A stretch of DNA of 64,000 nucleotides, from positions 398,501-462,500 of the forward strand of contig JACRMN010000023.1 of NCBI GenBank assembly GCA_016214955.1, read 5' to 3'. The notes beneath the pieces are model-generated. The model was not told the DNA's origin and ran no database searches. It saw only the letters and a list, made by a program, of their open reading frames with translations. How positions within the stretch are numbered: position 1 is the stretch's first letter; each line of letters begins with the position of its first letter. Made by a program: the position numbers and the translations under genes. Below, piece by piece: positions 7,585-60,710 of the stretch. This DNA comes from Deltaproteobacteria bacterium (GTDB lineage Bacteria > Myxococcota > Myxococcia > Myxococcales > Anaeromyxobacteraceae).

Positions 7585-7627
7585 GGCGGCACCTCGGCCC
7601 AGGGTCTACCACGCCCGCGCGAACCCC

Positions 7628-7656: not shown

Positions 7657-7666
7657 CCCTTCGCCT

Positions 7667-7743: not shown

Positions 7744-7752
7744 CCTTCCTCC

Positions 7753-7786
7753 GAGACCTCACCTGCACTCACGCCGGTGGGGTCTC
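7753..7786 (+). terminator. candidate terminator downstream of tRNA-Arg
   Basis: A 10-bp stem (GAGACCTCAC with GTGGGGTCTC, one G-T pair) and a 14-base loop begin 10 bases after the CCA end. The following bases (TTCGTTGTTGG) are moderately T-rich, so an intrinsic terminator is plausible. Confidence 0.55.
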
Positions 7787-7989
7787 TTCGTTGTTGGTCG
7801 CTGCTCCGCGCGAAGTGTCAGAAGGCGTCCAGGCTCCGCGCGTGTACTCGCGCGCGTTGCGATCCGCGCTCCGGCTGACGCGACCGCCGCGAGCGGAGCT
7901 CGCAGGAGCGGCCGGAGGCGGGCATCACCACCCCGGAGCCCGGAGTGGTGATGCTGCGCCCCTCGATCTTCGCCGCTACAGGGCGCTCA

Positions 7990-8860: not shown

Positions 8861-9028
8861 CGGGGCGAGCGTGGGTGGAACGACCACGGGGGCGGCGACC
8901 GTCAGGGTCGCCTCGGCCGGGGCGGCGCTGCTGCCGTTGCTGGTCTGCAGCGCGCCGGCGGGAAGCGAGTTGAGGTAGCTGCCGCCGGCGGCGGCGGTCA
9001 CGCTCACCGTCACCGTGCAGGAGCCCCT

Positions 9029-22345: not shown

Positions 22346-22620
22346 AGCACCAGCTCGCCAAGCGGATGGTGCTGTTCTCGGTGCTGGGGACCATGGTGGC
22401 CATGGCCTTCATGATCGTGGCCGTCCTCTTCCCCAACCCGCTCGTCCTGGTGCTGGCCATGAGCGTGGGCCAGGGCATCGCCATCCTCTCGCTGGCCCTG
22501 TACCTGCTGGCGGTGGCCCTCGACCTGCAGTCGAGCGGCGGCGCCTACGTCTCCGCGGTGGACGAGCTCCAGGCGGCCCCCGAGACGCCACCCGACTCGA
22601 CCGCCGGCCCGCAGGCCTAG
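22342..22620 (+). CDS. small two-helix membrane protein (second copy)
   Basis: 92 residues, ATG overlapping the cytochrome stop (ATGA), the same coupled arrangement as the copy at 4387. Two hydrophobic helices (about 9-29 and 32-60), with the conserved motif VLAMSVGQG and SLALYLLA, then a hydrophilic tail. No cofactor motif is visible. Retention of the pair in both loci argues that it is a functional partner of the cytochrome. Confidence 0.82.
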   Translation: MKHQLAKRMVLFSVLGTMVAMAFMIVAVLFPNPLVLVLAMSVGQGIAILSLALYLLAVALDLQSSGGAYVSAVDELQAAPETPPDSTAGPQA

Positions 22621-34262: not shown

Positions 34263-34511
34263 TCAGGCCTTGGCCTGCTTGCGCTCCAGGTAGGCGCAGA
34301 TGCGGGCGATGGTCTCGAAGTTCTCCGGGACCAGCTCCTCCTCGGCGACCTTGATGGAGAACTTCTCCTCCAGGAAGGTGACGATCTCCAGCATGCCGGT
34401 GGAGTCCACGTAGCCGCCCTCCAGCAGGGAGGTCTCGGGTCCGAGGGCGTTGGCGTCGCTCACGTAGAAGTTCTCGACGATGAACTTCTTCACCTGCGGT
34501 GCATGATTCAT
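34263..34511 (-). CDS. acyl carrier protein
   Basis: 82 residues. The phosphopantetheine serine is Ser37 in GGYVDSTGM, a variant of the usual DSL motif, and the fold is the normal four-helix carrier length. The ATG overlaps the asparagine-synthase stop (ATGA), so it is translationally coupled to it. Given an acyl-CoA-ligase-like gene nearby, it likely carries an acyl or aminoacyl group for modification of the locus polymer; the substrate is not known. Not the housekeeping AcpP, which is expected next to fabD. Confidence 0.88.
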   Translation of the reverse strand: MNHAPQVKKFIVENFYVSDANALGPETSLLEGGYVDSTGMLEIVTFLEEKFSIKVAEEELVPENFETIARICAYLERKQAKA

Positions 34512-36553: not shown

Positions 36554-36554
36554 C

Positions 36555-37538
36555 TCAGGCCTCCGGCTTCTCTCCCACGCGCAGCGGCGCCTGGTGCAGG
36601 TATCGGCTGACGCGCCGCTTGGCCTCGATGTCCCGGTAGACCCGCTCCACCTGGGCGGCGGTGAGCTTCAGCACCGGCGCGGCCTCGGCGGGCGGCACCT
36701 GGTGGTTGTGGGCCCAGAGGCACAGGTCCATCTCGTGGTAGGGCAGCGCGAAGTAGAACTCCTCCTGCGTCTGCGGCAGGGAGAAGGTGTCGGTGGTGGG
36801 CGGCCGCCGGCGGATCTCCTCGGGCACCCCCAGGTACTCGGCGAGCGCGAACACCTGGGTCTTGTAGAGGTGGGCGATGGGCTTGAAGTCGGCGGCGCCG
36901 TCCCCCTGCTTCACGAAGAAGCCCTGGTCGTACTCCAGCAGGTTCGGCGTGCCGGCCACGGCGTAGTGGAGCCGATCGGCGTGGTAGTACTCCATCATCT
37001 TGCGGCCGCGCTGCTTGAAGTTGGTGGCCGCGACCATCTGCAAGTAGGCGGCCGGGGTCATCCGCACCGTGCGCTGGGCGCCGCCGGGCTCGGCGATGGT
37101 GAGCGCGGTGATGCTGAGCCGATCGCCCTCGAGCAGCGAGGGGATGGTGAGCTTGCACTTCCAGCCCTCGCCGTACTCCGGCACCACCTGGCGGATGGCC
37201 TCCAGCTGGCGCCGGTAGCAGCCCAGCCCCTCCAGCGCCGGTGCGATGTCCTCGACCAGGTAGCGGATGCCGAGGTGCTCGGCCAGCGTGCGGCCCAGCC
37301 GCGCCGCGTCGCCGGAGGTGTCGCGCTCCGGCATCAGCAGGCCGACGACGCGGTCCTTGCCCAGGGCACGCGTGCAGAGCGAGGCCACCACCGAGCTGTC
37401 GATGCCTCCGGACATGCCGACCACCGCGCCGCGCCGGCGCAGGCCGGCGAGCACCTGCTCGCGGATGGACTCCGCGATGCGGTCGGCCTCCTGCGCCAGG
37501 TCGATGCGGAGCACGTCGCGGTGAAAGGGCGTCGTCAT
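36555..37538 (-). CDS. nadE: NAD(+) synthase-like ATP-pyrophosphatase
   Basis: 327 residues, with no glutaminase domain. The ATP-binding motif SGGIDSS is at 43-49; the C-terminal half includes NFKQRGRKMMEYYHAD, the stretch VKQGDGAADFKPIAHLYKT and TTDTFSLPQ, characteristic of this family. It may amidate deamido-NAD using ammonia. Its position next to an amidotransferase and a carrier protein also allows a specialised amidation role. No ribosome site precedes the ATG. Confidence 0.85.
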   Translation of the reverse strand: MTTPFHRDVLRIDLAQEADRIAESIREQVLAGLRRRGAVVGMSGGIDSSVVASLCTRALGKDRVVGLLMPERDTSGDAARLGRTLAEHLGIRYLVEDIAPALEGLGCYRRQLEAIRQVVPEYGEGWKCKLTIPSLLEGDRLSITALTIAEPGGAQRTVRMTPAAYLQMVAATNFKQRGRKMMEYYHADRLHYAVAGTPNLLEYDQGFFVKQGDGAADFKPIAHLYKTQVFALAEYLGVPEEIRRRPPTTDTFSLPQTQEEFYFALPYHEMDLCLWAHNHQVPPAEAAPVLKLTAAQVERVYRDIEAKRRVSRYLHQAPLRVGEKPEA

Positions 37539-37547
37539 AGGGCGCGC

Positions 37548-37556
37548 AGCATATCA
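37548..37556 (-). promoter_or_regulatory. extended -10 element before the NAD-synthase-like gene
   Basis: Minus-strand TGATATGCT (an extended -10 with TATGCT) ends 9 bases before the nadE ATG. Transcription would start next to the start codon, and no Shine-Dalgarno sequence is present, so a leaderless message is plausible. No -35 match. Confidence 0.35.
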
Positions 37557-37673
37557 CCGCCGCCGCCAGTGAACCTCCCGTATTCTCGGGACCTTTGGCT
37601 CCGTCCGGGACCCCCTCGCCTCGCTGCACCGGCGCGGCGCGGGTGTTACCTTGGGCCCGGAGGTGCGCACCGC

Positions 37674-39242
37674 ATGTCACGGCTGCACGAATGGGTTCTC
37701 CGCCACGCCGAGAGGACGCCCGGGGCCCCGGCAGTCCACACGCTCGCGGTACGCCTCGACTACCAGGGCCTGGCGGCGCGGCTGCGCGCGCTGGCGGGCC
37801 ACCTCGCGGCCTCGGGCGTGGGCCCCGGCGATCGGGTGCTGGTGGCGCTCCCCAACACCCCGGCCACCGTGGTGGCCAGCCTGGCCATCCAGGCCCTGGG
37901 GGCCACGCCGGTCGAGGTGAACCGGGAGTGGAGCCCGGAGATCCTGGCCGACATCGCCGCGCGCACCGGGGTCCGCCAGGCATTCGGGTGGGGCCGCGAC
38001 GCCCGCGCATGGGGAAGGATCCGCGCCCTGCGCCCCATCGATCGACTCTGGATGGTGCACGGCGGGCCCCTCCCCGCGCCGCTCGTGGCCGATGCCGGCC
38101 CGGGTCCCGTCCACCTGCTCCTCGACGACGGCAGCTCCGATCCCGCCCTGGGCCCGGCGCCGGTCACCCCGCTGGGGGGCGCGGGGAGCGCCCCGGCGCT
38201 CATCCTCTACACCTCGGGGAGCACCGGCCAGCCCCGAGGCGTGGTCCAGACCCACGCCAACGTCGCCGCCAACACCCGCTCCATCGTCGAGTACCTGGGG
38301 CTCGGCCCCCAGGACCGGGCCCTGCTGGTGCTGCCGCTCTACTACTGCTACGGCCGCAGCGTGCTGCAGACCCACCTCTTCGCGGGGGGCTCGGTCTTCC
38401 TGGAGGGGCGGCTCGCCTTCCCGCGGGTGGTGATGCAGGCCATCGCCGCCGAGGGCTGCACCGGCTTCGCCGGCGTGCCCCTGACCTTCGAGCTCATCCG
38501 CCGGCAGGTGGACGTGGCGGCCATGAAGTTCCCGCGCCTCCGCTACCTCACCCAGGCCGGTGGGGCGATGGCCCCCGAGACCATCTCCTGGGTCCGCGGT
38601 GCCTTCCACCCGGCCCGGCTCTTCGTCATGTACGGGCAGACCGAGGCCACGGCCCGCCTCAGCTACCTGCCGCCGGAGCGGGCCGAGGAGAAGAAGGGCT
38701 CGATCGGCATCCCCATCCCCGGCGTCCACCTGGCGGTAGTCGACGAGGCCGGGCGTGAGTTGCCGATCGGCGAGACAGGCCACCTGGTGGCCCGCGGCGA
38801 CAACGTCACGCCGGGCTACCTCGACGAGCCGGAGGAGACCTCCGCCATCCTCCACGACGGCTGGCTCTGGACCGGCGACCTGGCCTTCCGCGACCCGGAC
38901 GGCTTCTTCTTCCACCAGGGGCGCTCCAAGGAGATCCTCAAGGTGGGCGGCCACCGGGTGAGCCCGGTGGAGATCGAGCACGTGGTGGCCGAGCATCCGG
39001 AGGTGGCCGAGGCGGCGGTCATCGGCGCTCCCGACCAGCTCATGGGCGAGCTGCCGGTGGCCTTCGTCGTGCCCCGGCCCGGCTGCGCGCCGACCCCCGA
39101 GGCGATCCAGCGCTTCTGCCGGGAGCGGATGGCGGCCTGGCGCGTCCCCGCCCGCGTTCACTTCCTGCCCTCGCTGCCGCGCAACGAGGCCGGGAAGCTG
39201 CTGCGCGCCCAGCTCCGCGCGCAAGAGAAGGCCCCGGCCTGA
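37674..39242 (+). CDS. AMP-forming acyl-CoA ligase-like protein
   Basis: 522 residues. The AMP-binding signature YTSGSTGQPRGV begins at 179; further motifs are YGQTEATARLSY, WTGDLAFRD and a late catalytic-loop Lys in PRNEAGKLLRAQL. It would adenylate a carboxylic acid and transfer it to CoA or a carrier protein. Relatives are encoded in exosortase-linked EPS loci. GGAGGTG lies upstream of the ATG. Divergent from the nadE-asnB-ACP operon, which supplies an acyl carrier and an amidotransferase, so a shared pathway is likely. Confidence 0.88.
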   Translation: MSRLHEWVLRHAERTPGAPAVHTLAVRLDYQGLAARLRALAGHLAASGVGPGDRVLVALPNTPATVVASLAIQALGATPVEVNREWSPEILADIAARTGVRQAFGWGRDARAWGRIRALRPIDRLWMVHGGPLPAPLVADAGPGPVHLLLDDGSSDPALGPAPVTPLGGAGSAPALILYTSGSTGQPRGVVQTHANVAANTRSIVEYLGLGPQDRALLVLPLYYCYGRSVLQTHLFAGGSVFLEGRLAFPRVVMQAIAAEGCTGFAGVPLTFELIRRQVDVAAMKFPRLRYLTQAGGAMAPETISWVRGAFHPARLFVMYGQTEATARLSYLPPERAEEKKGSIGIPIPGVHLAVVDEAGRELPIGETGHLVARGDNVTPGYLDEPEETSAILHDGWLWTGDLAFRDPDGFFFHQGRSKEILKVGGHRVSPVEIEHVVAEHPEVAEAAVIGAPDQLMGELPVAFVVPRPGCAPTPEAIQRFCRERMAAWRVPARVHFLPSLPRNEAGKLLRAQLRAQEKAPA

Positions 39243-39280: not shown

Positions 39281-39466
39281 CTACTTCTTCTTGCGGCGCG
39301 CCACCAGCACGCCGCCGCCGGCGATCAGCGCCGCCACCACGCCGGCGGCCGCCGGGTCGAACTCGGGGACGGAGCGGCGGTGGCGCCCGCGGCGCTCCTC
39401 GGCCTCGGCGGAGGCTGCGGCCAGCAGCAGCACGGCGACGAACACTGCGCGAAGTACGTTGTGCAT
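39281..39466 (-). CDS. miniature VPEID-CTERM-like sorting-signal protein
   Basis: 61 residues. A signal peptide (about 1-22, ending SAEA) is followed by only about 10 basic residues (EERRGRHRRS), then VPEFD (33-37), one membrane helix (39-56) and the basic tail RRKKK (57-61). This tripartite end matches exosortase recognition signals of the VPEID-CTERM type. An exosortase E-like fusion is encoded 10 kb upstream in the same array. GGGGGAGA precedes the ATG. Likely substrate of that exosortase; after processing almost no protein would remain, so a peptide, lipid-handle or signalling role is possible. Confidence 0.82.
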   Translation of the reverse strand: MHNVLRAVFVAVLLLAAASAEAEERRGRHRRSVPEFDPAAAGVVAALIAGGGVLVARRKKK

Positions 39467-39572
39467 CGGATCTCCCCCGCGGAACTCGCGTCGGGAGCGG
39501 TGGCGCTCCCGGGAGCCAGTCTCGGCCCCGGCACCCGGGCACGCAACTCCCACGTGCCGGTGACTCCGCCAT

Positions 39573-41594
39573 TCAGACGGTGCCGGACGGCACCATCCGC
39601 CGCACCCCCTCGACCAGGCCCACACGGGGCTGCCAGCCGAGCAGCCCGGTGTTCTCACAGGCGAAGTCCAGGCGGGCCAGCGCCGAATGTAGCCGGTAGC
39701 CCGACACCGGCGACTTGCGCTTCAGGAGGCCGAGGAGCGGTTCGGTGAGCCTTCCCGCGGCGAACACGAAGGCGCGCGGCAGCCGCACCACCTTGGCGCC
39801 CGGCCCCAGCAGCTGCGCCAGCACCTGGTTCTGGGTGAGGCGAGCCGGGTCGACGAGCTGGATCACCTCCCCGCCGCGAAGCGGGCCGTCGAGCGCCGTC
39901 TGCACGGCGTCCACCACGTCGTCGATGTAGACCAGGGGAAGCTTCAGCTCGCCGTCGCCGAGCACCAGCCAGCGCCGGCCGGCGCGGCGCGCCACCGCGG
40001 GCGTGAGCAGGGGCAGGCGGCCACCGAAGATCTGGCCCGGGCGGAGGATGACCGCCGGGAGCCCGGCGGCGGCTGCGGCCCGCACCAGCTTCTCGGCCTC
40101 GAGCTTGGCCCGGGTGTACGGCCCCCGGTCGTCGGGCCGCGGCTCGTCGGCCGTGCGCTCGGAGAGGACACCTCCCTCGGAGCCGGCCCAGTCGACGACC
40201 GACATCGAGGAGACGTGCACCAGCTTGGACACGCCGTGACGCTGGCAGGCCTCCACCACGTTGCGGGTGCCGACCACCGTCCCGCGCTCGTGCTCCTCCC
40301 AGCCGCCCTTCATGGCCGCGCCGACGTGGATCACCGCCTTCACCCCGCGCACGGCCCGCTCCACGGCCTCGGGATCGCCCAGGTCGCCGACGACCACCTC
40401 GGCGCCCGGCGGGATCTCTGCCGGGTAGCGGCGCACCAGCAGGCGGACCCGGCGCCCGGCGAGGCGCTTCACCACCTCGCTGCCAAGCGCGCCGGAGGCG
40501 CCGGTGACCAGCACCTCGGCCTGCTCGAGCGCGGGCAGGCGCGCCAGGCGCGCGGCGTGATCGGCGTCCGCGGCTCGCGCCACTTCCTCCACCCAGCGCA
40601 CCACCGAGGTGGCCTCGCCCAGAGCCACCGGCGGCGGGCGGCCGCCCTCCAGCCCCTGGTAGAAGGCGCGCACCAGGCCGTGCAGGCCCTGGTAGGGCTT
40701 CACCACCTTGGTGGCGAACTTGACCACGCCCACCGGGACGTCGATCAGCGGCTGCAGCGAGTCGGTGAGCGCGTTGACCACCCGCTCCGCCGGCTTGGGG
40801 AGCGGCAGGGCCGAGCGCAGCGCCTTGAACATGAGGAACAGGTCGAGCCGGAGCACGCCGCGGGTGCCCTGGATGATGATCTGGCTCTGCATGGGCCGCA
40901 CGTTCCAGGAGAGCTGCACCTGGCCCATCCCGCGCCTGCAGCGCACCATGGTCCGCCACTCGTCCCAGGCCAGGTTGGGGTCGCCGCCGCGCGATTCCCA
41001 GAAGCCGCGCGCCTCCTCGATGGGGCCGAGGAAGGCCTCGAAGAGGTAGAAGGCGTGGATCCCCAGGTCGCGGAACGGGTAGCCCGGCGTGCGGTAGTGC
41101 GGCGGCAGCGGGCCGCCGCGATACGGCGGGTACATCGAGCCGCGGAGGATGTCGACCGAGACCACCTCGCCCAGCTTCCCGGCCCGGACCAGCGCCAGCG
41201 CCTTGACCACCTGCGGGTCGTAGAGCAACGAGTGGTTGACGGACGCCTGCAGGCCGCGGCTCTCGGCCGCGGCCGTCACCCGGCGGCAGTCCTCGACGCT
41301 GGTCGCCAGGGGCTTCTCCACCAGCACGTGGCAGCCCAGCTCGAGGGCCGAGCAGGCCACGTCGGCGTGGCTGTCCGGCGGGGTGAGCACGTGGATCACC
41401 GAGGCCCCGGCCTCGCGCAGCGCCGCCAGCGACGGGTAGGCGCGGCTGCCGACCCGCTCGGCGAAGGCCTGGGCGCGCGCCGGATCCAGGTCGACCACCC
41501 CGACCAGCTCCACGTTCTCCAGTCCGCGCAGCGCGGCAGCGTGATGCTCGGCGATGGCGCCGGTTCCCACCAGCCCTGCCCGGAATCGCGTCAT
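39573..41594 (-). CDS. Gfo/Idh/MocA oxidoreductase fused to an NAD-dependent epimerase/dehydratase
   Basis: 673 residues. Residues 1 to about 345 form a Gfo/Idh/MocA oxidoreductase: cofactor motif LVGTGAIAEHH, then TPPDSHADVA and VEKPLA. Residues about 352-673 are an extended SDR: VTGASGALGSEVV, the VSSMSVVDW block and a PYTRAKLEAE segment with the Tyr-x3-Lys pair. Both domains use NAD(P)-sugars, suggesting sequential steps in making a modified sugar nucleotide for the polymer. Starts 1 base after the upstream polymerase stop; downstream end is about 100 bases from the sorting-signal gene. Confidence 0.87.
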   Translation of the reverse strand: MTRFRAGLVGTGAIAEHHAAALRGLENVELVGVVDLDPARAQAFAERVGSRAYPSLAALREAGASVIHVLTPPDSHADVACSALELGCHVLVEKPLATSVEDCRRVTAAAESRGLQASVNHSLLYDPQVVKALALVRAGKLGEVVSVDILRGSMYPPYRGGPLPPHYRTPGYPFRDLGIHAFYLFEAFLGPIEEARGFWESRGGDPNLAWDEWRTMVRCRRGMGQVQLSWNVRPMQSQIIIQGTRGVLRLDLFLMFKALRSALPLPKPAERVVNALTDSLQPLIDVPVGVVKFATKVVKPYQGLHGLVRAFYQGLEGGRPPPVALGEATSVVRWVEEVARAADADHAARLARLPALEQAEVLVTGASGALGSEVVKRLAGRRVRLLVRRYPAEIPPGAEVVVGDLGDPEAVERAVRGVKAVIHVGAAMKGGWEEHERGTVVGTRNVVEACQRHGVSKLVHVSSMSVVDWAGSEGGVLSERTADEPRPDDRGPYTRAKLEAEKLVRAAAAAGLPAVILRPGQIFGGRLPLLTPAVARRAGRRWLVLGDGELKLPLVYIDDVVDAVQTALDGPLRGGEVIQLVDPARLTQNQVLAQLLGPGAKVVRLPRAFVFAAGRLTEPLLGLLKRKSPVSGYRLHSALARLDFACENTGLLGWQPRVGLVEGVRRMVPSGTV

Positions 41595-41595: not shown

Positions 41596-42951
41596 TCACC
41601 ACCCCAGCTTCCAGCCGGTGTACCCCGTGAACGAGGCCACCAGCGCGATGCAGATCAGGAAGACTGCCCCCAGATCGCGGCGCGTGAACTCGACGTGGAA
41701 GCCGGGCTCGTGCCTGCGAATCGCGCCGTATAGCACGGCGGTCAAACCGATGTATACCCAGAGCGTGGTCTTGTAGTTGAAGGACAGGAACATCACGCCC
41801 ACCGCCATGCCCGCGACCGACGCCAGGATGGCGAGCGCCCAGATGCGCGCCACGGGCGGGAGCGGCGCGCGCAGCGCCGCCACCGGGATCTTGGTCGCCA
41901 GGTAGACGTTGGAGCTCCAGATCACCATGCCCGGCAGCCCCAGCTCGGCCGCTGCCAGGATGTAGCTGTTGTGGGCGGTGAGCCGGTGGTGCTCGATGAA
42001 GAGGCCGGTGCCGATCCCCACCACCGGCGAGCTGGCGAAGAGGTGCATGCCGACCCACCAGCACTCCAGCCGCTCCATGGTGGAGTCCTCGGCGCCGGAC
42101 CGGCCGCCCAGGAGCAGGACCGGGAGCGCCAGCAGCATCCCCAGGGCCAGCCCCTTGGCGATGCCGACCCGCTTCACGAAGTAGATGCCCAGCACCGTGA
42201 GGAACACCAGCTGCCCGCCGCGCGACTGGGTGAAGAGCGTGCAAAGGCCGATGCTCCCGGCCGCCAGCACCATGATGGCCATGCGGGTGAGGCTGCGCTT
42301 CCGCTCGTAGAAGGCGAAGGAGAAGGGCAGCGCCATGGCCAGGACCAGCGCCAGCTCGTTGGGATCCTCCAGGCTGCCGCGGAAGCGGACCCGGCCATTG
42401 ATGGAGGAGGTGCCGAAGAGACCCTCCTTCTCGCAGGAGTAGTCGGCGCCCGGATCGCCGTCGGCCTCGCAGTCGAGCCGGGTCTCGCAGGGGCGGCCGT
42501 CGTAGTTCCAGCGCATGTCGCCGTCGACGATGGTCACCCGGTAGCAGGCCGGATCCGCCAGCCCCTGGTGGACGCCGATGGCGGCCAGCACCAGCGAGAG
42601 GGCGAGCAGGAGCCCGCACAGGATCTCCAGGGCGCGGAAGGTCTGGAGCCCGTGGGCCACCAGCAGGTAGATGGCGAGGGGGATGGCCAGGGCCGCTGCC
42701 CGGGCAGGCGCCTGGCCCGGCCCGCGCAGGGTCACCGCCAGGATGCACCAGGCGAAGAAGGCCAGGGCCAGCAGGAGGTGGGGCGCCCGGCGGAGCTTGG
42801 TCAGGCCGATCCGCAGGTCGACCACGTACCCGAGCAGCGCCAGCCCGGCGGCCATGTGGAGGAGCGGCACGCCCCGGAGGCCGGCCACGTACTCCTGGGG
42901 GCGGAGGTAGTCCACCGCGACCAGCGCCAGCAGCCCGAGGAGCGCGAACAT
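41596..42951 (-). CDS. O-antigen polymerase/ligase family membrane protein
   Basis: 451 residues with about 11 hydrophobic helices and the conserved periplasmic loop (QSRGGQLVF) of the Wzy_C/O-antigen ligase family. It would polymerise lipid-linked repeat units at the periplasmic face or ligate glycan to an acceptor; exosortase loci often carry such proteins as putative O-glycosylation ligases. A 1-base gap on each side indicates tight operon structure. Wzy and WaaL-like activities are not separable by sequence. Confidence 0.85.
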   Translation of the reverse strand: MFALLGLLALVAVDYLRPQEYVAGLRGVPLLHMAAGLALLGYVVDLRIGLTKLRRAPHLLLALAFFAWCILAVTLRGPGQAPARAAALAIPLAIYLLVAHGLQTFRALEILCGLLLALSLVLAAIGVHQGLADPACYRVTIVDGDMRWNYDGRPCETRLDCEADGDPGADYSCEKEGLFGTSSINGRVRFRGSLEDPNELALVLAMALPFSFAFYERKRSLTRMAIMVLAAGSIGLCTLFTQSRGGQLVFLTVLGIYFVKRVGIAKGLALGMLLALPVLLLGGRSGAEDSTMERLECWWVGMHLFASSPVVGIGTGLFIEHHRLTAHNSYILAAAELGLPGMVIWSSNVYLATKIPVAALRAPLPPVARIWALAILASVAGMAVGVMFLSFNYKTTLWVYIGLTAVLYGAIRRHEPGFHVEFTRRDLGAVFLICIALVASFTGYTGWKLGW

Positions 42952-44690: not shown

Positions 44691-46940
44691 CTAGCCGCCG
44701 AGCAGCGCGAAGCCGGCCACCTTGGCGGTGCCGATCTGGCCCAGCGCGGCCCGGATGGCCCGGGTGCGCGAGACGCGCGTCCTCACCGAGAGCAGCACCA
44801 GGTCGACGCTCTCCTGCATCAGGTTGACGTCGGCGCTCTGCAGCACCTCGGGGCTGTCGACGATGATGTAGTCGTAGCCGCTCATCCGGAAGGCGGCAAC
44901 CGCCAGGTTGAGGGCCCGGTCCAGCGTAGGCTTGGCGGTGCTCCCCGGCGAGATGGCCACGGTGTGCAGCGAGGGCACGCCGGTCTCCACCGCCTCCCAG
45001 GGCTCGCGCGGCTTGAAGCGGTGCGACTCGAGCTGCTCGCCGGCGCAGACCAGCGGCTGGAAGCCGAAGACGCTGGCCAGCACCGGGGCGCGGAAGTTGG
45101 TCTCCAGGAGCAGGACCCGGGCCCTGTCGGCCTCGCCCAGCGCCATGGCCAGGTTCACGGCGCAGAAGCTCTTGCCCTCGCTGCCGCGGGCGCTGGTGAC
45201 CAGGATGGTTCGCGGGTCGCCGCGCTCGCGCAGCCGGTGGCGCAGCACGCGGAAGGCGGCGGCGGCCGGGGATTCGGGGGAGTTGAGCATCACCAGCCGC
45301 GGGTCGCTGGTGCGCAGCGTGGGGACGCGGTGGACGCGCACGAAGGCGGCGCCGCCCGGCATCGCCTCCGGGGCGATGGCGGCGCCCGGCGCCGCGATGC
45401 GCGCCAGCGCGGTGGAACCGCCGCCGCCCTCCTTGCCGCCCCGGCCCTTCTCCCCGGGCAGGAGGCCGGCCACCGGGGCTCGCGCCCCTCCCCCGTTCCC
45501 GGCGGCCAGGACCGGCCCGCCGGCCGGCATCGCCGCCCTGCCGATCTCGAGGAGCACCGGAAGGGAGGGCAGCCGCTCCAGGTCGGGGGCCTCGTAGACC
45601 ACGTCGTCGTAGAGGGCGAACAGCAGCGCCACCGCCACGCCGGCCACCAGCGCGGCCAGCAAGCCGATGAGCGCCTTCACGCCGCGGCTGGGGCCGAGGG
45701 GCTGGGCCGGGAGGAAGGCCGGGTCGATGACCACGATCTGCGAGGACTGGCCGCTGGCCGCCATGCTGGCGGTCATCGAGGCCACGAACTGCCGGTTGTC
45801 GAGCTGCTGCAGCCGCTCGCGGGCCTCGGCCACCTCGCGGTTGAGCCTCGCCCACTCCGCCTCGTCGCTGACCACCCGCTGCGCCGCCTCGGGGGTGCGC
45901 GGCACCGCCTGCTGGGGGCGCTGCGCCGCCTGGAGGCGCCGCGCCGTGGCCAGCTCCTCCTGCACCTGCTGCAGCCGCCCGCTCAGCACCTGGGGCTCGG
46001 TTGCCTGCAGGGCGTCCGCGGCGCGGCGGTAGGCGTCGAGGGCGCCCCTGACGTTGGCCTCGGCGGCCCGGACGTCCGGGTGCTGCTCGGTGTAGGCGGC
46101 CCGCTTCTCGTTCAGGTCCCGCTGCGCCGCGCGCAGCTTGGCCTCCGCGTCGTCCTTGGCCGCCACCAGCGCCGGATCGGGGCCGGTGCGCTGGCCCGGC
46201 GTGGTGATCTGGCGCCTCAGCCGCTCCTCCTCGCGCCGCAGCGCGACAACCGCGTCGCTCTCGCGATCGCCCTCGGGCGCTGCCCGGGCCCGGCCGCGCA
46301 TCGCGCCGGCCGCCTGGCCCTGCTCGGCGGAGAACTCCGGGTGTCGCGCCATGAACCGGAGCAGCGCCGCCTCGCGGGTGGCCAGGTCGCCCTCGGTCCG
46401 CTTCTTCTCCGCGTCCAGGAAGGTCCCGGCGCCCTGGGTCTGCTCGGAGCGCAGCCGCGCGTTCTCGGCGATGAGCAGGTCGGTGAGCCGGGCCACGACC
46501 TTCTGGGCCTCCCCGGCGGAGTCCCCGGTGTAGGAGATGGCGTAGACGTCGCTCTGGTCGATGCGGAACCCGATGGCCAGGCGCATCTCCTCGACGGCCT
46601 CTCCCATGCGGCCGGCCTTCACCAGCCGCGGGTAGAGGCCCGACTCCTGGATGAGCTTGGTGAGCAGCGTCCGGGCCAGCAGCATGTCCTTGAAGCGCTG
46701 GCCCATGCGGCGGGCGTTGGGTGCGTCGGTGGTCGTCCACTGCAGCCCCTCGCGATAGTAGACCACCGCCTCGGAGCGCCAGCGCTTGGGCCACCACTGG
46801 ATCACCGCGCCGGTGGCCAGCATCCCCACCACCACGGCCGCCAGCCCGGGCCGCCACTTGCGCAGCGTTCGCCGGGCCAGGCGGAAGATGGCCTGCAGCT
46901 CGTCGTTCCAGGAGGCGTGGGCGGAAGGAGTCGGTTCCAT
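44691..46940 (-). CDS. Wzc-like polysaccharide co-polymerase/ATPase
   Basis: 749 residues. N-terminal membrane helix (about 32-48), a Wzz-type region with long coiled coils (about 150-370), a second helix (about 430-450) and a C-terminal P-loop domain. Walker A is SARGSEGKS, followed by LLLETNFRAP in place of the usual A' Asp, and YDYIIVDSPE. There is no C-terminal tyrosine cluster, so autophosphorylation as in Wzc is unlikely. Controls chain length and export coupling of the polymer at the inner membrane. Confidence 0.87.
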   Translation of the reverse strand: MEPTPSAHASWNDELQAIFRLARRTLRKWRPGLAAVVVGMLATGAVIQWWPKRWRSEAVVYYREGLQWTTTDAPNARRMGQRFKDMLLARTLLTKLIQESGLYPRLVKAGRMGEAVEEMRLAIGFRIDQSDVYAISYTGDSAGEAQKVVARLTDLLIAENARLRSEQTQGAGTFLDAEKKRTEGDLATREAALLRFMARHPEFSAEQGQAAGAMRGRARAAPEGDRESDAVVALRREEERLRRQITTPGQRTGPDPALVAAKDDAEAKLRAAQRDLNEKRAAYTEQHPDVRAAEANVRGALDAYRRAADALQATEPQVLSGRLQQVQEELATARRLQAAQRPQQAVPRTPEAAQRVVSDEAEWARLNREVAEARERLQQLDNRQFVASMTASMAASGQSSQIVVIDPAFLPAQPLGPSRGVKALIGLLAALVAGVAVALLFALYDDVVYEAPDLERLPSLPVLLEIGRAAMPAGGPVLAAGNGGGARAPVAGLLPGEKGRGGKEGGGGSTALARIAAPGAAIAPEAMPGGAAFVRVHRVPTLRTSDPRLVMLNSPESPAAAAFRVLRHRLRERGDPRTILVTSARGSEGKSFCAVNLAMALGEADRARVLLLETNFRAPVLASVFGFQPLVCAGEQLESHRFKPREPWEAVETGVPSLHTVAISPGSTAKPTLDRALNLAVAAFRMSGYDYIIVDSPEVLQSADVNLMQESVDLVLLSVRTRVSRTRAIRAALGQIGTAKVAGFALLGG

Positions 46941-46943: not shown

Positions 46944-48008
46944 CTAGCCAGTCCGTTCCTGCGGCGGAGCGCGGCGCGAGCCTACCTCGTCGCCGGGTTG
47001 CAGCGGTAAGGCCCCCAGGGCGGGCAGGCCATGGGCTCGCACGTCGGCCGGCTCGTAGAGCCGGTCGTCGAAGGCGCCGATCACGGTGGCCACGAGCAGC
47101 AGCGCGACCAGCAGCGCCAGGATGGCGCGGCGCACCACCTGGCCCCAGGTCAGGCGCGACGAGAGGGTGATGAGCGCGTCGTCGAAGGGGGCGAAGGATA
47201 CGCCCAGGTTCCGCTCCTCGGCAGCCAGGCGGAAGGCCAGGTCGGCGCGGCGGCGCTCCAGCAGGAGCAGGTTGTCGAGCGCGGTGCGGTTCTGCGACTC
47301 CAGGGCGGAGAGCTGGGCCTGGGCGCCGATGGCCCGGCGGGTGTCGGAGGAGCTCGCCTGCAGCCGCAGCCCGGCCATGGAGCGCTGGAGCGAGGCGGCG
47401 TGGGCCCGCGCCGCGCCGATCTGGGTCTCCAGGAGCTGCCGCGCCGACTCCAGCCGCTCGCCGCGCTGCGCCGCCTGCACCTCGAGGATGGTGTCGCCCA
47501 GCTCCCGCACGATGGCGCGGGCACTCTCCTCGTCGTTGCCGCGGAAGGAGATGGAGACGTGGGCCGAGCGCGGCGGGTCGGTGGCACTCCGGCCCCAGAT
47601 GAAGTAGTCGCGGGTGACCTCGACGCCGATCTCGGAGCGGAAGTCATCGATGGCCGCCTCGCGGTTCCGCGCCAGCCAGGCGACGGCGCGCCGGTGCTTG
47701 CGCATGATCCGCTCCAGGTTCTGGGCGGAGAGCGCCACGTTGGCGATGTGCTCGCGGATGTTCTGGGGCCTCTCGGGGCCGGTGGCGTCGTCGACCTCTC
47801 CCTCGTCGATGCGCAGGTAGACGACGGCCTCGTAGAGCGGCGGGCGCACGGCCCGGAGGGTCGTCACCCCGGCGGCGGCCAGCGTCGCCAGGGCGATCAC
47901 CAGCGCGGGGCGGCGCAGCGAGCGGCGCAGCGCCTGGCGCGCCACCGCGCCCAGCTGCCGCTCGGCGTCGGCCCAGGCCGCTTCCCGGGCGGCACCCAGG
48001 CCGCTCAT
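46944..48008 (-). CDS. Wzz-like chain-length determinant protein
   Basis: 354 residues. Two membrane helices (about 33-52 and 293-312) flank a periplasmic segment with a predicted coiled coil (about 190-270), the Wzz/co-polymerase layout. No ATPase domain. Begins at ATGA overlapping the upstream glycosyltransferase stop and is 3 bases before the Wzc-like gene, so the three genes form a unit. Confidence 0.83.
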   Translation of the reverse strand: MSGLGAAREAAWADAERQLGAVARQALRRSLRRPALVIALATLAAAGVTTLRAVRPPLYEAVVYLRIDEGEVDDATGPERPQNIREHIANVALSAQNLERIMRKHRRAVAWLARNREAAIDDFRSEIGVEVTRDYFIWGRSATDPPRSAHVSISFRGNDEESARAIVRELGDTILEVQAAQRGERLESARQLLETQIGAARAHAASLQRSMAGLRLQASSSDTRRAIGAQAQLSALESQNRTALDNLLLLERRRADLAFRLAAEERNLGVSFAPFDDALITLSSRLTWGQVVRRAILALLVALLLVATVIGAFDDRLYEPADVRAHGLPALGALPLQPGDEVGSRRAPPQERTG

Positions 48009-49177
48009 GCCAGCGCCCCCTGGAGCGCTGCCTCCAGGCGCCGGGCGCTCTCGTCCCAGCCGTGGCGCGCCCCGGCCCGGGCCACCTCCTCGGGCACGTA
48101 GGCCTGGCCGAGGGCCCCGGACAGCGCTCGCGCCAGCGCCTCGGGATCGCCCGGCGCCACGAGCTCCCCCAGCTCCGGGCCGGTGATCACGTCGGGCGTG
48201 CCGCCGACGCGGGTGGCCACCACCCGGCGCCCGCAGGCCAGCGCCTCCAGCGCCACGTTGGGCGTGCCCTCGGCGCGGCTGGGCAGCACCAGCAGGTCGG
48301 AGGCGGCCATCCAGCGAGGCACCGCCTCGAGCGGCTGCGACCCGGCCAGGAGCACGCGGTCACCGAGGGACGCGGCCGATCGGGCGCAGGCCTGGCGCAG
48401 CGACCCGTCGCCGACGATGGCCAGCCGCACGTCGGCGCGGCTCCGCGCCAGGCGACCGAAGGCCTCGAGGAGCTCGGCGACCCCCTTCACCGGCTCCAGG
48501 CGGCCGACGTAGAGGCACCAGGACCGCGTGTCCCCGCCGTGCCCCAGCGCGGCGCGGGCCTCCTGTCGGTCGCGGGGGTGGAACAGGGCCTGGTCGACGC
48601 CGTTGGTGATCACCTCGATGCGCTCGCGGGCCACGCCCAGGGCCGCCACCGCCTCGCCCAGCGGCCGCGAGACCGCCACGATGCGCCCTGCCTGCGGCAG
48701 CGTCCGGCGGAGGTTCTGCTCCACGCCGGGCAGCCGCCCCACCACGTTGATGTCGGAGCCGGAGACCTTGACCACGGCCGGGACGCCCGACTGGCGCGCC
48801 AGGAGCACGGCGGCGTGGCCGTCCGGATAGGCCCACGAGGAGAAGAGGACGTCGAAGCTCCCGCGGCGGCGACGGACCTCCCCAGCGAGCGAGCGCGCGT
48901 AGAGCCAGCCGGCCCAGCGGCGCCCCATCCGCGGAGGGTGGAGGAACCGGGGGTGGTGCACCTCCAGGCCGTCGATGACCTCGCGCGCGGGGACCTGGAG
49001 CAGGCGGCCGGCCTGCGACCAGCGGGAGAGCTGCCTGGCGCCGGGGTACCAGGGGATGGGCGCCAGGACCTGCACCGGGCAGCGCCGCGCCAGCGCCGCC
49101 ACCATCTGGCGGTTGAACGGCGACGCCAGCGGCTCGGCCGCGTTGGGGAACTGCTGGGTGATCACCAGGACTCTCAT
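48005..49177 (-). CDS. family 4 glycosyltransferase
   Basis: 390 residues, ATG chosen at MRVLVITQQFPN, the typical GT-B N-terminus. N-terminal GPGTF-like half, C-terminal nucleotide-sugar half with SRAEGTPNVALEALACG, the EX7E motif of family 4. The frame extends 34 codons upstream, but that part lies in the intergenic region. Probably adds one sugar to the lipid-linked repeat unit in the cytoplasm; donor not predictable. Confidence 0.88.
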   Translation of the reverse strand: MRVLVITQQFPNAAEPLASPFNRQMVAALARRCPVQVLAPIPWYPGARQLSRWSQAGRLLQVPAREVIDGLEVHHPRFLHPPRMGRRWAGWLYARSLAGEVRRRRGSFDVLFSSWAYPDGHAAVLLARQSGVPAVVKVSGSDINVVGRLPGVEQNLRRTLPQAGRIVAVSRPLGEAVAALGVARERIEVITNGVDQALFHPRDRQEARAALGHGGDTRSWCLYVGRLEPVKGVAELLEAFGRLARSRADVRLAIVGDGSLRQACARSAASLGDRVLLAGSQPLEAVPRWMAASDLLVLPSRAEGTPNVALEALACGRRVVATRVGGTPDVITGPELGELVAPGDPEALARALSGALGQAYVPEEVARAGARHGWDESARRLEAALQGALA

Positions 49178-49347
49178 CCAGTCGGCCAGGCGCCCCGGGG
49201 GTGAAACGTCGAGTGAAATGCGTCGGAGAGGGTGCGCCCGTCCGCGGCCCTCCCCGCTGCCGGCGGCCCGGAGCAGCAACCTGCGATACTAACAAGAATT
49301 CCCCGGTGCGGCGGCCGATCGCGCGTCCCCGGGTCCGGGTACCGCCG

Positions 49348-50943
49348 TCACCGCCAGAGGTCCCACCTTCCCCCGGCCAGCACCGCGAGCGCGACCACCC
49401 CGTTGGCCACCATGTGGGCCAGGATGGCGTCCCCCAGCCGTCCGCGCAGGCGGAGCGCCAGCGCGAAGGCCAGGCCGGCCAGCGTTCCCTGCCACCAGCC
49501 CGCGTGCAGCGCCCCGAACGCGAGCGAGGAGAGGAGCGCCGCCGGCAGGCCGAAGTCGCGCCCGGAACCCTCGCCGTGCGGGGCCAGCCACGAGAGCAGG
49601 AATCCGCGGAAGGCCAGCTCCTCCGCGACGGGGATCACCAGCGTGGACCCCAGCAGGCGCACGGCGATCCAGGCCCCGCGCGCCGGCAGCGACAGGTCCG
49701 CGAGCCAGGGCGGCGGGAGCGCCGGCTCCGCGCGGTGGGCCACCACCCAGAGCACGCCCGCGCCCAGCCCGAGGAGCGCCGCGAGACCCGACCGCCCCAC
49801 CAGCGGCCGGGGCCACCAGCGGCGCACGCCGGCCAGCACCAGCAGCGGCGCCGCCACCCGGAGCCCGTAGGCCATGGGCCCGGTGCCGGCGCCGACCACC
49901 TCCATCGCCATCGCTGTCGCCAGCGACGCCAGGAGCGGCGCGACCCATGGCCCGGCGGCCGCCGGCATCCCGCCCCCGGCGGCGAGCGCCTGCGGCCGGC
50001 GCAGCCAGTCGAGGTGCTCGGTGGCCGCGACGCTGGCCAGGGCGATGGCGGTGAAGAGCAGCCAGCCCACCTTCGAGTGGAAGGCGCCCACCGCAAGCTC
50101 CTCGTGCCCGTTGCCGCCCAGCCACACCAGGCCGGCGATGCGCAGCACGTTGCCGGCCAGGGCCACCGCGGCACCCGCGGGCAGGAGCAGGAGCGCTCGC
50201 CCCAAGCGCAGCCGCCCGTGGGCCAGCCCGATCCAGATGGACTGGAACACCAGCGTCAGCCCCACCCCGTCGATGCCGGCACAGTGCTGCGCGATCTCGA
50301 CCTCGAACGCCCCCAGGCCGATGACCCGCTCCGGCAGGTCGACGATCACCTCCGCCGAGACCAGGCGCAGCAGCCAGGCCACCGCCCGAAGGGTCCCGTC
50401 GGCCATGCGCCCCCACAGCGCCTCGGAGGCAGCCATGACCCGCCAGGAAGCCAGCCCCGCCGCCAGCGCCACCACCGGAACGCCCCAGGTTCGCCCCAGG
50501 CGCCGCCCCAGCCAGCCGAACGGGACGGCGCTGCGCAACGCCAGGACCGTGGCCCCGGCCAGCAGCGCCAGCCACGGGGCGACGCGGCCGCCGGTGGGCG
50601 GTGCCGCCCCGGGACCGAACAGCCGCGGGGTGAGGAGGGCGACGGGGAGGAAGGCGGCGGCGTGGGCCAGCAGCCAGGGCCACGGCCGCCAGGGCGGCAG
50701 GGGCTCCGGCGAGGTCTCGACGGCACGCAGCAGCATCCAGGCGGTCACCGCGCTCGCCAGCGCCACCGCCATGCCCATGCGCAGCGTCGACACCAGCTGC
50801 CCCAGCGGCCCGATGGTGGGGAGGTCGCCGAGGACGGTGAGCAGGCCGAGCTCGGCGGCCAGCAGCCCGGCCAGCACCGCCCAGCGCCACGGGGCGCGGC
50901 GCCCGGGGCCCTCCCCGGCGGATCCTGCCACGGCGGCGATCAT
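49348..50943 (-). CDS. xrtE: exosortase E-like / CPBP (CAAX) protease fusion
   Basis: 531 residues, many membrane helices. The exosortase half carries the catalytic set Cys221 (QHCAGIDG), Arg268 (NVLRIAG) and His289 (AFHSKVG). The C-terminal part is a CPBP family intramembrane protease: Glu441-Glu442 and Arg446 (EELAFRG), His480 (GALHAGW) and His510 (AHMVANG). This domain order is known for the exosortase E group linked with VPEID-CTERM proteins. It would cut and transfer tagged proteins at the membrane. Starts ATGA-overlapped with the upstream glycosyltransferase. Confidence 0.9.
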   Translation of the reverse strand: MIAAVAGSAGEGPGRRAPWRWAVLAGLLAAELGLLTVLGDLPTIGPLGQLVSTLRMGMAVALASAVTAWMLLRAVETSPEPLPPWRPWPWLLAHAAAFLPVALLTPRLFGPGAAPPTGGRVAPWLALLAGATVLALRSAVPFGWLGRRLGRTWGVPVVALAAGLASWRVMAASEALWGRMADGTLRAVAWLLRLVSAEVIVDLPERVIGLGAFEVEIAQHCAGIDGVGLTLVFQSIWIGLAHGRLRLGRALLLLPAGAAVALAGNVLRIAGLVWLGGNGHEELAVGAFHSKVGWLLFTAIALASVAATEHLDWLRRPQALAAGGGMPAAAGPWVAPLLASLATAMAMEVVGAGTGPMAYGLRVAAPLLVLAGVRRWWPRPLVGRSGLAALLGLGAGVLWVVAHRAEPALPPPWLADLSLPARGAWIAVRLLGSTLVIPVAEELAFRGFLLSWLAPHGEGSGRDFGLPAALLSSLAFGALHAGWWQGTLAGLAFALALRLRGRLGDAILAHMVANGVVALAVLAGGRWDLWR

Positions 50944-52106
50944 GGAGCGCCGGGGCGGGGCCGGGTTCCGGGGGAGCCGCGCGCCGCCAGCTCGCGGTAG
51001 AGCTCCACGTGGGCGCCGGCCATCGAGGCGACGCTGAAGCTGCGCCGGAACTTCTCGACGTTGGCCTCCCGCATGCGGCGCCTCAGGGCCGGGTCGCGGC
51101 GGATCTCCAGGACGGCGCGGGCGATGGCGCCCGGGTCCCGCGGCGGGAAGAGCAGCCCGTTCTCGCGGTCCGTCACCACCTCGGGGTTTCCTCCCACGGT
51201 GGTCGCCAGGATCGGCTTGCCGCCGGCCAGGGCCTCGAGGAGCGCCAGCGGCAGCCCCTCCCAGAGCGAGGGCAGCACGTAGGCGTCGAGGGCGGCGATG
51301 AGCTGCGGAACGTCGCGGCGGTAGCCGAGGAAGCGGACCCCGTCCCCCAGCCCCATGTCCCGCGCCTGTGCCTCGAGCTCGCCCCGCAGCGGGCCGTCGC
51401 CGGCCACCACGAAGCGGATCGAGGGATCGGCCTCGCGCACCAGGCGAGCCGCCTCGAGCAGGTACCGGATCCCCTTCTGCTCGGAGAGGACCACCGCCGT
51501 GCCCACCAGGAACTCGCCCTCGCGCCGCCCCAGCTCCCGCTCCACCGCCTCGGCGTCGGCCCCGACGAAGGCCCCCGGGTCGATGCCGTTGTGTAGCACC
51601 CGCACCGTCCGCGCCACCTGGAGCTTCTCCACCAGGGTCTTCCGCAGGTCGTGCGAGACGGCCACCACCTCGTCGGCCAGCCGCAGGTACCTGCCGAAGC
51701 GGCGAAGGGCACGCCCTCCGGCCCGGTAGACCTGGTTGTGCTCCGAGTAGGCCACCGCCGGCCGCCAGGGGCCGAGGAGCCGGGCCGCCAGCCCTCCGTA
51801 GAGGAGCGGGGCCAGGTTGTGGGTGTGCACCACCTCGACCCGCCGCGCCCGCAGGAAGCGTGCGATCCGCGCCAGCAGCAGGGGCGTGCGCAGCCGCTCG
51901 GCGGCGTTCACCTCGGCGCGCTTGTCGAGGACCAGGCAGGCCCCGGGTGGCAGCGGCAGGTCGCCGAAGAGCTTCCCGGGACCGGAGAGGCAGACGAGCG
52001 AGAGCTCGACCTCGGCGGCGGGCAGGTGCCGGGCCAGGCTCAGCACCACCTTCTCGAGCCCGCCCACGTCCAGGTTGTTGACCACCATGCAGACGCGAAC
52101 GGCCAT
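50940..52106 (-). CDS. family 4 glycosyltransferase
   Basis: 388 residues: MVVNNLDVGGLEKVV N-terminus and, in the C-terminal half, GTAVVLSEQKGIRYL and PSLWEGLPLALLEALAGGKP (EX7E motif). A retaining GT-B enzyme acting on a lipid-linked intermediate; sugar unknown. The ATG is the start of the conserved fold, though the frame is open further upstream. Its stop overlaps the exosortase start, so expression of the two is coupled. Confidence 0.88.
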   Translation of the reverse strand: MAVRVCMVVNNLDVGGLEKVVLSLARHLPAAEVELSLVCLSGPGKLFGDLPLPPGACLVLDKRAEVNAAERLRTPLLLARIARFLRARRVEVVHTHNLAPLLYGGLAARLLGPWRPAVAYSEHNQVYRAGGRALRRFGRYLRLADEVVAVSHDLRKTLVEKLQVARTVRVLHNGIDPGAFVGADAEAVERELGRREGEFLVGTAVVLSEQKGIRYLLEAARLVREADPSIRFVVAGDGPLRGELEAQARDMGLGDGVRFLGYRRDVPQLIAALDAYVLPSLWEGLPLALLEALAGGKPILATTVGGNPEVVTDRENGLLFPPRDPGAIARAVLEIRRDPALRRRMREANVEKFRRSFSVASMAGAHVELYRELAARGSPGTRPRPGAP

Positions 52107-54061: not shown

Positions 54062-55627
54062 TCAGGCCTTTGGCAAGCCACGGGAACCCAGCAGCGCGCG
54101 GAGCTCGTCGCGCGCCTCGGGGACGGCGACCAGCACCAGGGCGGCGAACACCGCGCTGGTCGCCAGACCCGCCGCCACGAAGGCCACCGGCCCCTCGATG
54201 CGCAGCAGGCGCAGCGGCAGGAGCAGGGCGATGTAGCCCAGCGCCAGCGGCACGGAGCGGCGGTGGGAGCGGGCCCACTGGCCCAGCGAGATGCCGGCCT
54301 CCGCGCGCAGCAGGAAGGGGAACAGGATCCCCCGGAAGACGAGCATGGGGATGGCCGTCCCCAGGCACACCCCGTAGATGCCGTAGCGCCCGATGAGGGC
54401 GATGCTGAGGCCGAGGTTGGCCGCCGCCTCGGCCAGGGTGAGCGCGGTGATGCCGCGCAGCCGGCCCGAGGCCATGAGCAGCTTCTCGCCGGCGATGGTG
54501 AGCAGGGCCACGAAGTAGGCCGGGAGCATGATCTGGGTGACAAGGAACGCCTCCTCCACCCAGGGCTTGCGGATCCAGAGGCGCAGGAAGGGCAGGCCGA
54601 GCACGGCGATGTTGGCCAGCACCCAGCCGGTGACCAGGCCGGTGGTGAGGTTGGCCTTGTCCAGGAGCCGCTCGATGCCCTGGCGATCGTGGCGTTCGTG
54701 GAGGCCGGCGAAGCGCGGGAAGGTCATGGCGCCGATGACCGCGATGGCCATGTAGGCGATGTGGATGAGCCTCATCCCGATGGAGTAGACGGTGATGTGC
54801 TCGCTGGTGAGGAAGTAGCCGATGACCGCCGAATCGAGCTGGAACCGGACCAGCTCGCCGATCTGGATGAGGAAGGTGCCGGTGCCGTAGACGGCCAGCG
54901 CCCAGACGGTGGCCCTGTCGACGGCCCGCGGGCTGGGGCGGCGGGTCCAGGGGCAGAGCCACAGCGCCGAGCCCGTCATGGCCAGGTTGCGCACCAGGCT
55001 CTCGGCGAGGACCAGCAGGGCCAGGAGCCACAGCGAGATGCCGGTGCGGGAGAGCCAGAGCACCAGCCCCAGCTTGAACACGGTGTAGGTGAGGAACTCG
55101 ACCGAGTCGGGGATGAAGTAGAACGAGCGGGCGCGGAGGCTGGCCGGCTGGGGGTGCAGCAGCAGGTCGAGGAGACCCGCCAGGCCGAGCACGGCGATGA
55201 CCCCGCCCTTGCCGGCCAGGGCCTCGGGGAAGAGGCGCGGCAGGAGCACAGAGAGGATCCCGGTGGCCAGGAGCGCCAGCGAGGCCGCTCCGGCGAACAT
55301 CATGGCGCTGGAGCTGTGGATCTGCCGCAGGCGCGTCTGGTCGCCGCGGGCCAGCGCACCGGCGGTGAAGCGCAGCGTTCCGGCCGACATGCCCAGATCC
55401 AGCGCGCGCAGGTGGGTGATGAAGGAGTTGACCAGCAGCCAGGCCCCGTACTGCGCCTCGCCCAGGCCGAAGATCAGCGCCGGGGTGACGATGAAGCTGC
55501 CGGCGATGCCGATGAGCTGGCAGGACCACGAGGCCGCCAGGTTTCCCAGGTGCAGCCAGCGCCCCCTGCCCGGGCCCTCGGCTGCCTCTGCCTGGCCGGC
55601 GGCCGGCTCCGTCTCCGCGATTTCCAC
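54062..55627 (-). CDS. Wzx-type oligosaccharide flippase
   Basis: 521 residues, about 14 hydrophobic helices in the pattern of MATE-like/polysaccharide flippases. A short soluble N-terminus (EIAETEPAAG) precedes the first helix. It would move lipid-linked repeat units to the periplasmic face, supplying the polymerase at 41596. Family signatures are weak in such proteins, so the assignment rests on size, topology and context. Confidence 0.82.
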   Translation of the reverse strand: MEIAETEPAAGQAEAAEGPGRGRWLHLGNLAASWSCQLIGIAGSFIVTPALIFGLGEAQYGAWLLVNSFITHLRALDLGMSAGTLRFTAGALARGDQTRLRQIHSSSAMMFAGAASLALLATGILSVLLPRLFPEALAGKGGVIAVLGLAGLLDLLLHPQPASLRARSFYFIPDSVEFLTYTVFKLGLVLWLSRTGISLWLLALLVLAESLVRNLAMTGSALWLCPWTRRPSPRAVDRATVWALAVYGTGTFLIQIGELVRFQLDSAVIGYFLTSEHITVYSIGMRLIHIAYMAIAVIGAMTFPRFAGLHERHDRQGIERLLDKANLTTGLVTGWVLANIAVLGLPFLRLWIRKPWVEEAFLVTQIMLPAYFVALLTIAGEKLLMASGRLRGITALTLAEAAANLGLSIALIGRYGIYGVCLGTAIPMLVFRGILFPFLLRAEAGISLGQWARSHRRSVPLALGYIALLLPLRLLRIEGPVAFVAAGLATSAVFAALVLVAVPEARDELRALLGSRGLPKA

Positions 55628-60128: not shown

Positions 60129-60710
60129 ATGAGATCCGCCCTCCTCTCCCTCCTGCTCCTCGGCGCCTGCGCCGGAGCGCGGCCCTACGACTACTCCCGG
60201 GAGCCGGATCCCCGGCGCGCCGAGTACATCATCGGCCCGGCCGACCAGCTGTCGGTGCAGGTGTGGAAGAACCCGGAGCTCTCCAAGGACGTCTCGGTCC
60301 GCCCCGACGGGACCGTCACCCTGCCGCTCATCGGCGACATCAAGGCCGCCGGCCAGACCCCCACCCAGCTCCGCGAGGAGATCGTGCGGCAGCTCGGGCG
60401 CTTCGTCCGCGGCGAGGGGCTGGTGGTGACCGTGGGGGTCACCGGCGTGAACAGCTACACGTTCACCGTGAGCGGCAACGTCGAGCGAGCCGGCGTCTAC
60501 TCCTCGCAGCGCTACGTCACCGTGCTGGAGGCCATCCAGCTGGCCGGCGGCCCCAACCGCTTCGCCTCACCGGGCGGCATCGAGATCTACCGCCGCGATG
60601 CCGAGGGGAAGGTGCGCGCCATCCCCATCGACTACCCGGCGCTGCTGGCCGGCCGGCGGCCCGAGTCCAACGTGGCCATCCTGGCCGGCGACCAGATCAA
60701 CGTCCCCTGA
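60129..60710 (+). CDS. Wza-like polysaccharide export lipoprotein
   Basis: 193 residues. Signal ending LLLLGAC (Cys14). A Poly_export domain (about 33-112: YIIGPADQLSVQVWKNPELSKDVSV-type) is followed by one SLBB domain (about 115-190). Outer-membrane export channel subunit for the locus polymer. Shorter than E. coli Wza (about 380 residues), lacking the C-terminal amphipathic helix that forms its outer-membrane pore, so a short exosortase-type version. Confidence 0.88.
   Translation: MRSALLSLLLLGACAGARPYDYSREPDPRRAEYIIGPADQLSVQVWKNPELSKDVSVRPDGTVTLPLIGDIKAAGQTPTQLREEIVRQLGRFVRGEGLVVTVGVTGVNSYTFTVSGNVERAGVYSSQRYVTVLEAIQLAGGPNRFASPGGIEIYRRDAEGKVRAIPIDYPALLAGRRPESNVAILAGDQINVP

Follow-up and report, generated by a model that had tools for sequence, protein, structure and literature searches.

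What is a protein for that consists of almost nothing but a sorting signal? The question is raised by a 61-residue ORF 10 kb from the exosortase gene xrtE in the 64-kb stretch of DNA analysed here, which we call the window. The initial annotation described this ORF as a signal peptide with little beyond a sorting tag, and our analysis bears this out, since the ORF is real, has a good ribosome binding site and is conserved in relatives. Read from the minus strand, the product is MHNVLRAVFVAVLLLAAASAEAEERRGRHRRSVPEFDPAAAGVVAALIAGGGVLVARRKKK*, 61 residues in which a signal peptide, about ten further residues, a VPEFD motif, a hydrophobic helix and an RRKKK tail follow one another (Table 1); a plus-strand reading of the same segment was rejected, there being no meaningful ORF. 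The ORF has a coding-like codon-position composition and, in a six-frame scan of the window, is the sole ORF that combines the motif, the helix and the basic tail. A profile built from 67 non-myxobacterial tags recovers it with an E-value of 7.4e-7 as the only significant match among 718 window ORFs (next 0.21). A chance or decayed ORF might be suspected from the short length alone, but the small protein is conserved in five relatives, belongs to a family under purifying selection and is recognised by an independently built profile, so that we regard this explanation as practically dismissed.

Table 1. Coordinates of the small tagged gene, its parts and its neighbours in the window
Feature	Position	Strand	Evidence and remarks
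Micro-substrate gene, 61 aa	39281..39466	minus	ATG at 39466; translation, homologues, coding composition, independent profile
Shine-Dalgarno-like GGGGGAG	39472..39478	minus	5 nt spacing to ATG; sequence
Signal peptide, residues 1-22	39401..39466	minus	predicted cut after ASA or AEA; sequence and simple scoring rule
Exported remnant EERRGRHRRS, residues 23-32	39371..39400	minus	predicted; not conserved
Sorting motif VPEFD, residues 33-37	39356..39370	minus	PE invariant in 40-member alignment
Hydrophobic helix PAAAGVVAALIAGGGVLVA, residues 38-56	39299..39355	minus	sequence and alignment
Basic tail RRKKK	39284..39298	minus	sequence
Gfo/Idh-like and sugar epimerase/reductase fusion	39573..41594	minus	next gene upstream of the micro-substrate gene
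Possible O-antigen ligase-like protein	41596..42951	minus	weak match, TIGR03097 E 2.2e-7, below cut-off
Chain-length determinant / BY-kinase (Wzc-like)	44691..46940	minus	TIGR03007, TIGR03018, below cut-off
GT4 glycosyltransferase	48005..49279	minus	
XrtE: exosortase domain fused to CPBP (CAAX-protease-like) domain	49348..50943	minus	TIGR04162 181.6 bits, cut-off 150
GT4 glycosyltransferase	50940..52106	minus	xrtE start overlapped by 4 bp
Flippase-like (Wzx)	54062..55627	minus	weak match NF041503
Polysaccharide export protein (Wza-like)	60129..60710	plus	TIGR03027 127 bits, below cut-off 180

The gene is the last of a minus-strand polysaccharide array that runs from about 56725 to 39281, and is oriented convergently with a gene for an acyl-CoA ligase; its earlier placement at the downstream end of the array that also encodes the exosortase is thus correct, xrtE lying 10 kb away in the same array. 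Genes of the kind that accompany XrtA adjoin the array at 34263-39242 (an asparagine synthase-like amidotransferase, an acyl carrier protein and an acyl-CoA ligase similar to TIGR03098), and the genome has no XrtA. Elsewhere in the window, two similar gene pairs 16 kb apart (4387-5327 and 21695-22620) each encode a NapC/NirT-type multihaem cytochrome and a small protein, of 85 and 92 aa respectively, that has no Pfam match.

The window's XrtE also scores above the cut-offs of TIGR03008 and TIGR04178. The catalytic residues of both halves (Cys, Arg and His; EExxxR, His and His/Asn) are aligned and conserved in six sequences, while the presence of EExxxR in 81 of 81 XrtE proteins is a biased count because the loci were located with the EExxxR peptide itself. 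A sequence search for solved structures among XrtE relatives gave none, and the papers searched yielded nothing on XrtE function.

The curated tag model TIGR04161 does not match the window protein up to an E-value of 10, nor did a genome search with the same limit recover the protein. Searched one protein at a time with E up to 0.1, 24 of the 40 family members sampled do match the model. As detectors in six genomes, TIGR04161 and TIGR02595 were discarded, as all but one of their weak matches lay off the tag positions; TIGR02595 gives the window ORF a sub-threshold 14.2 bits. The match to the independent profile together with the failure of TIGR04161 therefore indicates a protein that works like, and appears related to, the VPEID-CTERM targets of XrtE, while failing the curated tag model. 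The window protein is a divergent member of this dedicated kind. It also scores 17.8 bits with the LPXTG model TIGR01167 (cut-off 15.9), but that match covers only the helix and tail (residues 39-61); the motif is VPEFD and there is no LPXTG, which speaks against this identity.

The small protein and XrtE occur together. Among 99 genomes, the small protein was found in six Anaeromyxobacteraceae, namely the window's own genome (G000; 5.3 Mb, 30 contigs), its congener G002, G004, G016 (Anaeromyxobacter sp. PSR-1), G019 and G022 (Anaeromyxobacter oryzae Red232), G000 belonging to a different genus from the last and from PSR-1, and XrtE scored above its cut-off in exactly those six. The initial annotation had tied its reading to conservation of the small ORF or its motif in relatives that keep xrtE, and all five relatives with XrtE above cut-off keep the small protein; the co-occurrence that it proposed to test is also seen, as no XrtE-negative genome of the 99 has a genuine copy. 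A homologue in G067 (E 8.6e-4) was rejected as a chance match that has no signal, helix or basic end. In 195 Myxococcota genomes the tag profile matches nine, all of them within the 11 that are XrtE-positive, although co-occurrence counts of this sort are not independent draws because the genomes share ancestry. Within the genus Anaeromyxobacter (g3) both genes are patchily distributed and are either jointly present or jointly absent. Each of the six genomes has one strong tag-profile match (62-71 bits), the next best reaching 17 bits and none exceeding 18, XrtE is the only exosortase found in each, and no PEP-CTERM cohort was found in any of them. We conclude that the micro-protein is almost certainly a dedicated XrtE substrate, and we think it probable that, as an overall explanation, it is the single dedicated substrate in its genome and a member of a family of nearly cargo-free targets that is widespread. 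There could be XrtE substrates whose tag is unrecognised.

Four of the six genomes, all from among the five relatives, have the tagged gene directly upstream of xrtE. In three Anaeromyxobacter genomes the xrtE ATG is about 10 bp past the stop codon of the target, and in G002 about 60 bp. In the window the target gene does not adjoin xrtE. The 10 kb between them, and the 2.5 Mb between target and xrtE in A. oryzae, mean that adjacency is not universal. The start of xrtE in A. oryzae is overlapped by a gene for a 432-aa protein without a Pfam match (locus L043, 8457-9755).

Our search for further targets covered 80 named XrtE loci from Acidobacteriota (many of them Bryobacterales), Planctomycetota, alpha-, beta- and gammaproteobacteria and Myxococcota, retrieved with a six-sequence XrtE alignment as query; a contig search with a single XrtE sequence gave no matches. 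The scan for tagged ORFs had no upper length limit and was then filtered to small products. It found 74 small tagged ORFs at most 1.2 kb from xrtE and on its strand (about 180 kb of flank) in 61 of the 80 loci, with lengths of 42-107 aa and a median of 56.5. Only three were found elsewhere (about 967 kb plus the opposite strand), and the one that is real, in L070, is adjacent to xrtE on the opposite strand. Inspection showed a target near xrtE in six further loci, L055 (167 aa), L059 (cut by the contig end), L070, L090, L107 (start unclear) and L118. Several of the remaining 13 loci have little flanking sequence, and the targets of two, L060 and L122, are about 230 aa long. Two targets stand in tandem in about 12 loci. 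The betaproteobacterial locus L122 has two such tandem targets of about 230 aa (7453-8988; APELN/APEIN), a large-cargo exception. That tiny exosortase substrates are unusual, as the initial annotation implied, does not hold for XrtE, for which small targets are the rule. This suggests that XrtE handles short peptides rather than large surface proteins.

The predicted remnant, from the signal-peptidase cut to the motif, has a median length of five residues, and an AxA-like site is present in 70 of 77 targets, single cut positions being uncertain because the signal-peptidase rule used is a crude one. Two alphaproteobacterial targets of 42 aa (L090, 9330-9473, MGWASFAAAYCPPVPEFDGPAGIAAAALLISVAAVLYDKIKK; L104, 56-199) have no evident signal peptide. 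Of the 26 nucleotide differences between these two, 18 are at third codon positions, and their flanks are unrelated, so conservation is at the protein level. In the alphaproteobacterial targets L090, L104, L113 and L115 a Cys stands two to four residues before the motif (YCPP-VPEFD, WNCA-VPEID, FWNCA-APEID), conceivably a lipidation-like site; myxobacterial targets such as that of the window have no Cys there.

The remnant itself varies widely. Those of relatives differ completely from one another (EERRGRHRRS, QHHHREGRGDDGRRG and GDEGNDHGRGHGRGHHHGNGYGHG), and the six myxobacterial targets, 61, 70, 83, 155, 167 and 168 aa long, are well conserved in the tag only. In Anaeromyxobacter the remnant exceeds 100 residues and is Gly/Asp-rich, in Acidobacteriota it is about five residues, and over the family it may be absent altogether or form a Gly-, Pro- or His-rich stretch. 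The three Anaeromyxobacter targets of 155-168 aa mean that the lack of cargo is not absolute in the family. Comparison of 15 pairs, each of close relatives or of tandem copies, gave a pN/pS of 0.15 for the tag against 0.45 for the N-terminal part; these figures are descriptive, as the pairs share sequences. The comparison of the window with G002 gave 0.51 and 0.77. As the remnant is not conserved, it is the tag and its processing that matter, not a specific peptide. We therefore reject the earlier suggestion that the basic peptide EERRGRHRRS is the specific product, and a specific bioactive peptide is unlikely in general. For the same reason we give very little credence to the release of a short secreted signal or antimicrobial, with XrtE as its maturation protease: the export signal, the processing site, the small size and the basic remnant in the window would fit, but the sequence, charge and length of the remnant are unconserved between close relatives or phyla, and no receptor, transporter or immunity gene is a conserved neighbour.

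The surrounding array invites the idea that the micro-protein serves the polysaccharide, as a primer, an anchor or a length-limiting cap for the exopolysaccharide (EPS) made by the array. The initial annotation mentioned this context, and for the window it stands, the gene lying within a polysaccharide array with XrtE; it does not extend to the family. When all ORFs of the 80 loci and the window were clustered, one cluster, XrtE, was present in every locus. The next two lie on the opposite strand over xrtE and look like its antisense shadows, and the further clusters (TonB-dependent-receptor-like proteins, MacB/FtsX permeases and others) are each confined to at most ten loci. Any gene similar to the window's array lies within 10 kb of xrtE in only 11 of 80 loci, a count obtained by BLAST against the window's genes, which would overlook EPS genes unrelated to them. 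XrtE thus has no constant companion other than the micro-target, the EPS array is not typical, and an EPS partnership as a general rule is rejected by the clustering. Although xrtE lies near Wza-like, glycosyltransferase or ligase genes in the window, G002 and G022, the pair is isolated, next to a response regulator gene, in three Anaeromyxobacter genomes, and a role in serving the neighbouring polysaccharide seems to us improbable.

By analogy with sortases and other exosortases, we envisage the following mechanism. The signal peptide would export the short N-terminal stretch, while the PE[F/L/I]D-helix-RRK tag would anchor the protein to the inner membrane. XrtE would cut at the motif with its exosortase half, through the cysteine of the Cys-Arg-His site, and might pass the tiny remnant to an acceptor in the envelope, a glycan or lipid; the fused CPBP domain may then clear the left-over helix. 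Transfer of the remnant to such an acceptor is a tentative proposal that we would put at slightly under an even chance. Rather less likely is that processing or occupancy is the function itself, the micro-protein being a regulator or pseudo-substrate. As a membrane partner it might occupy or stabilise XrtE, or its cleavage might be the signal, with no peptide attached to anything. The strongest conservation being in the motif and helix, the remnant of only 0-6 residues in many members, the 42-aa targets of L090 and L104 with no evident signal peptide and the usual position of the gene beside xrtE would all suit this alternative, which we rate as doubtful. XrtE retains its catalytic residues and these genomes have no other visible substrate, which would leave an inhibitor or activator without a process to control; the tandem diverged copies fit a substrate better, and the export signals with their AxA-like sites also speak against pure regulation.

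Taken as a substrate, the micro-protein allows a broader if provisional interpretation, to which we lean not quite halfway: XrtE may be a cargo-free system, found in at least four phyla, that sorts no surface proteins. It would instead process a dedicated, sequence-tolerant micro-peptide, either for tagging a polymer of the envelope or as a signal, and the tag gene and xrtE would form a portable unit that works independently of exopolysaccharide loci. An exosortase need not, then, come with a set of surface proteins or with an EPS locus. The action of exosortases on their substrates is still largely inferred. For direct measurement of the cleavage site, the acceptor and the biological role, hardly a smaller system could be expected than a two-gene module of this kind, in which the substrate is little more than its recognition signal, each genome has one target and accessory genes are not conserved.

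The pair is already known by name in NCBIfam, as XrtE (TIGR04162) and VPEID-CTERM (TIGR04161). Haft et al. in 2012 reportedly presented it as an alphaproteobacterial system dedicated to a single target. The window's pair agrees with it in an enzyme above the curated family cut-off, in having one target per genome, in a tag of P-E-[hydrophobic]-D, helix and basic tail, and in a gene that usually stands beside xrtE. It differs in that the VPEFD/VPELD tag of the window type escapes TIGR04161, in its myxococcotal host and in a target gene that, in the window, comes last in a polysaccharide array. The PExPT-CTERM targets of XrtJ (TIGR04200, a model of 57 positions) are likewise tiny, so XrtE is not alone in having cargo-poor targets; that system has another exosortase, and with its model the window protein scores 6.1 bits against a cut-off of 40 and no protein in the genome exceeds the cut-off. 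The XrtA/PEP-CTERM system shares the tripartite tag, the exosortase chemistry and the EPS neighbourhood. XrtA has many targets with large mature domains, whereas the window genome has neither XrtA nor a PEP-CTERM cohort. In the same phylum, the myxosortase MrtX is an intramembrane protease that likewise sorts C-terminally tagged proteins, and XrtE too has a CPBP-type protease domain; in MYXO-CTERM a Cys is invariant and dozens of substrates are typical (PMC11980579), in contrast to the window's tag, which has no Cys (there is none in the 61 aa) and a single substrate. To what is known of XrtE our analysis adds a divergent tag in Anaeromyxobacteraceae and the range of phyla over which the system extends; it also puts figures on the lack of cargo, finds selection acting on the tag and separates the system from EPS loci.
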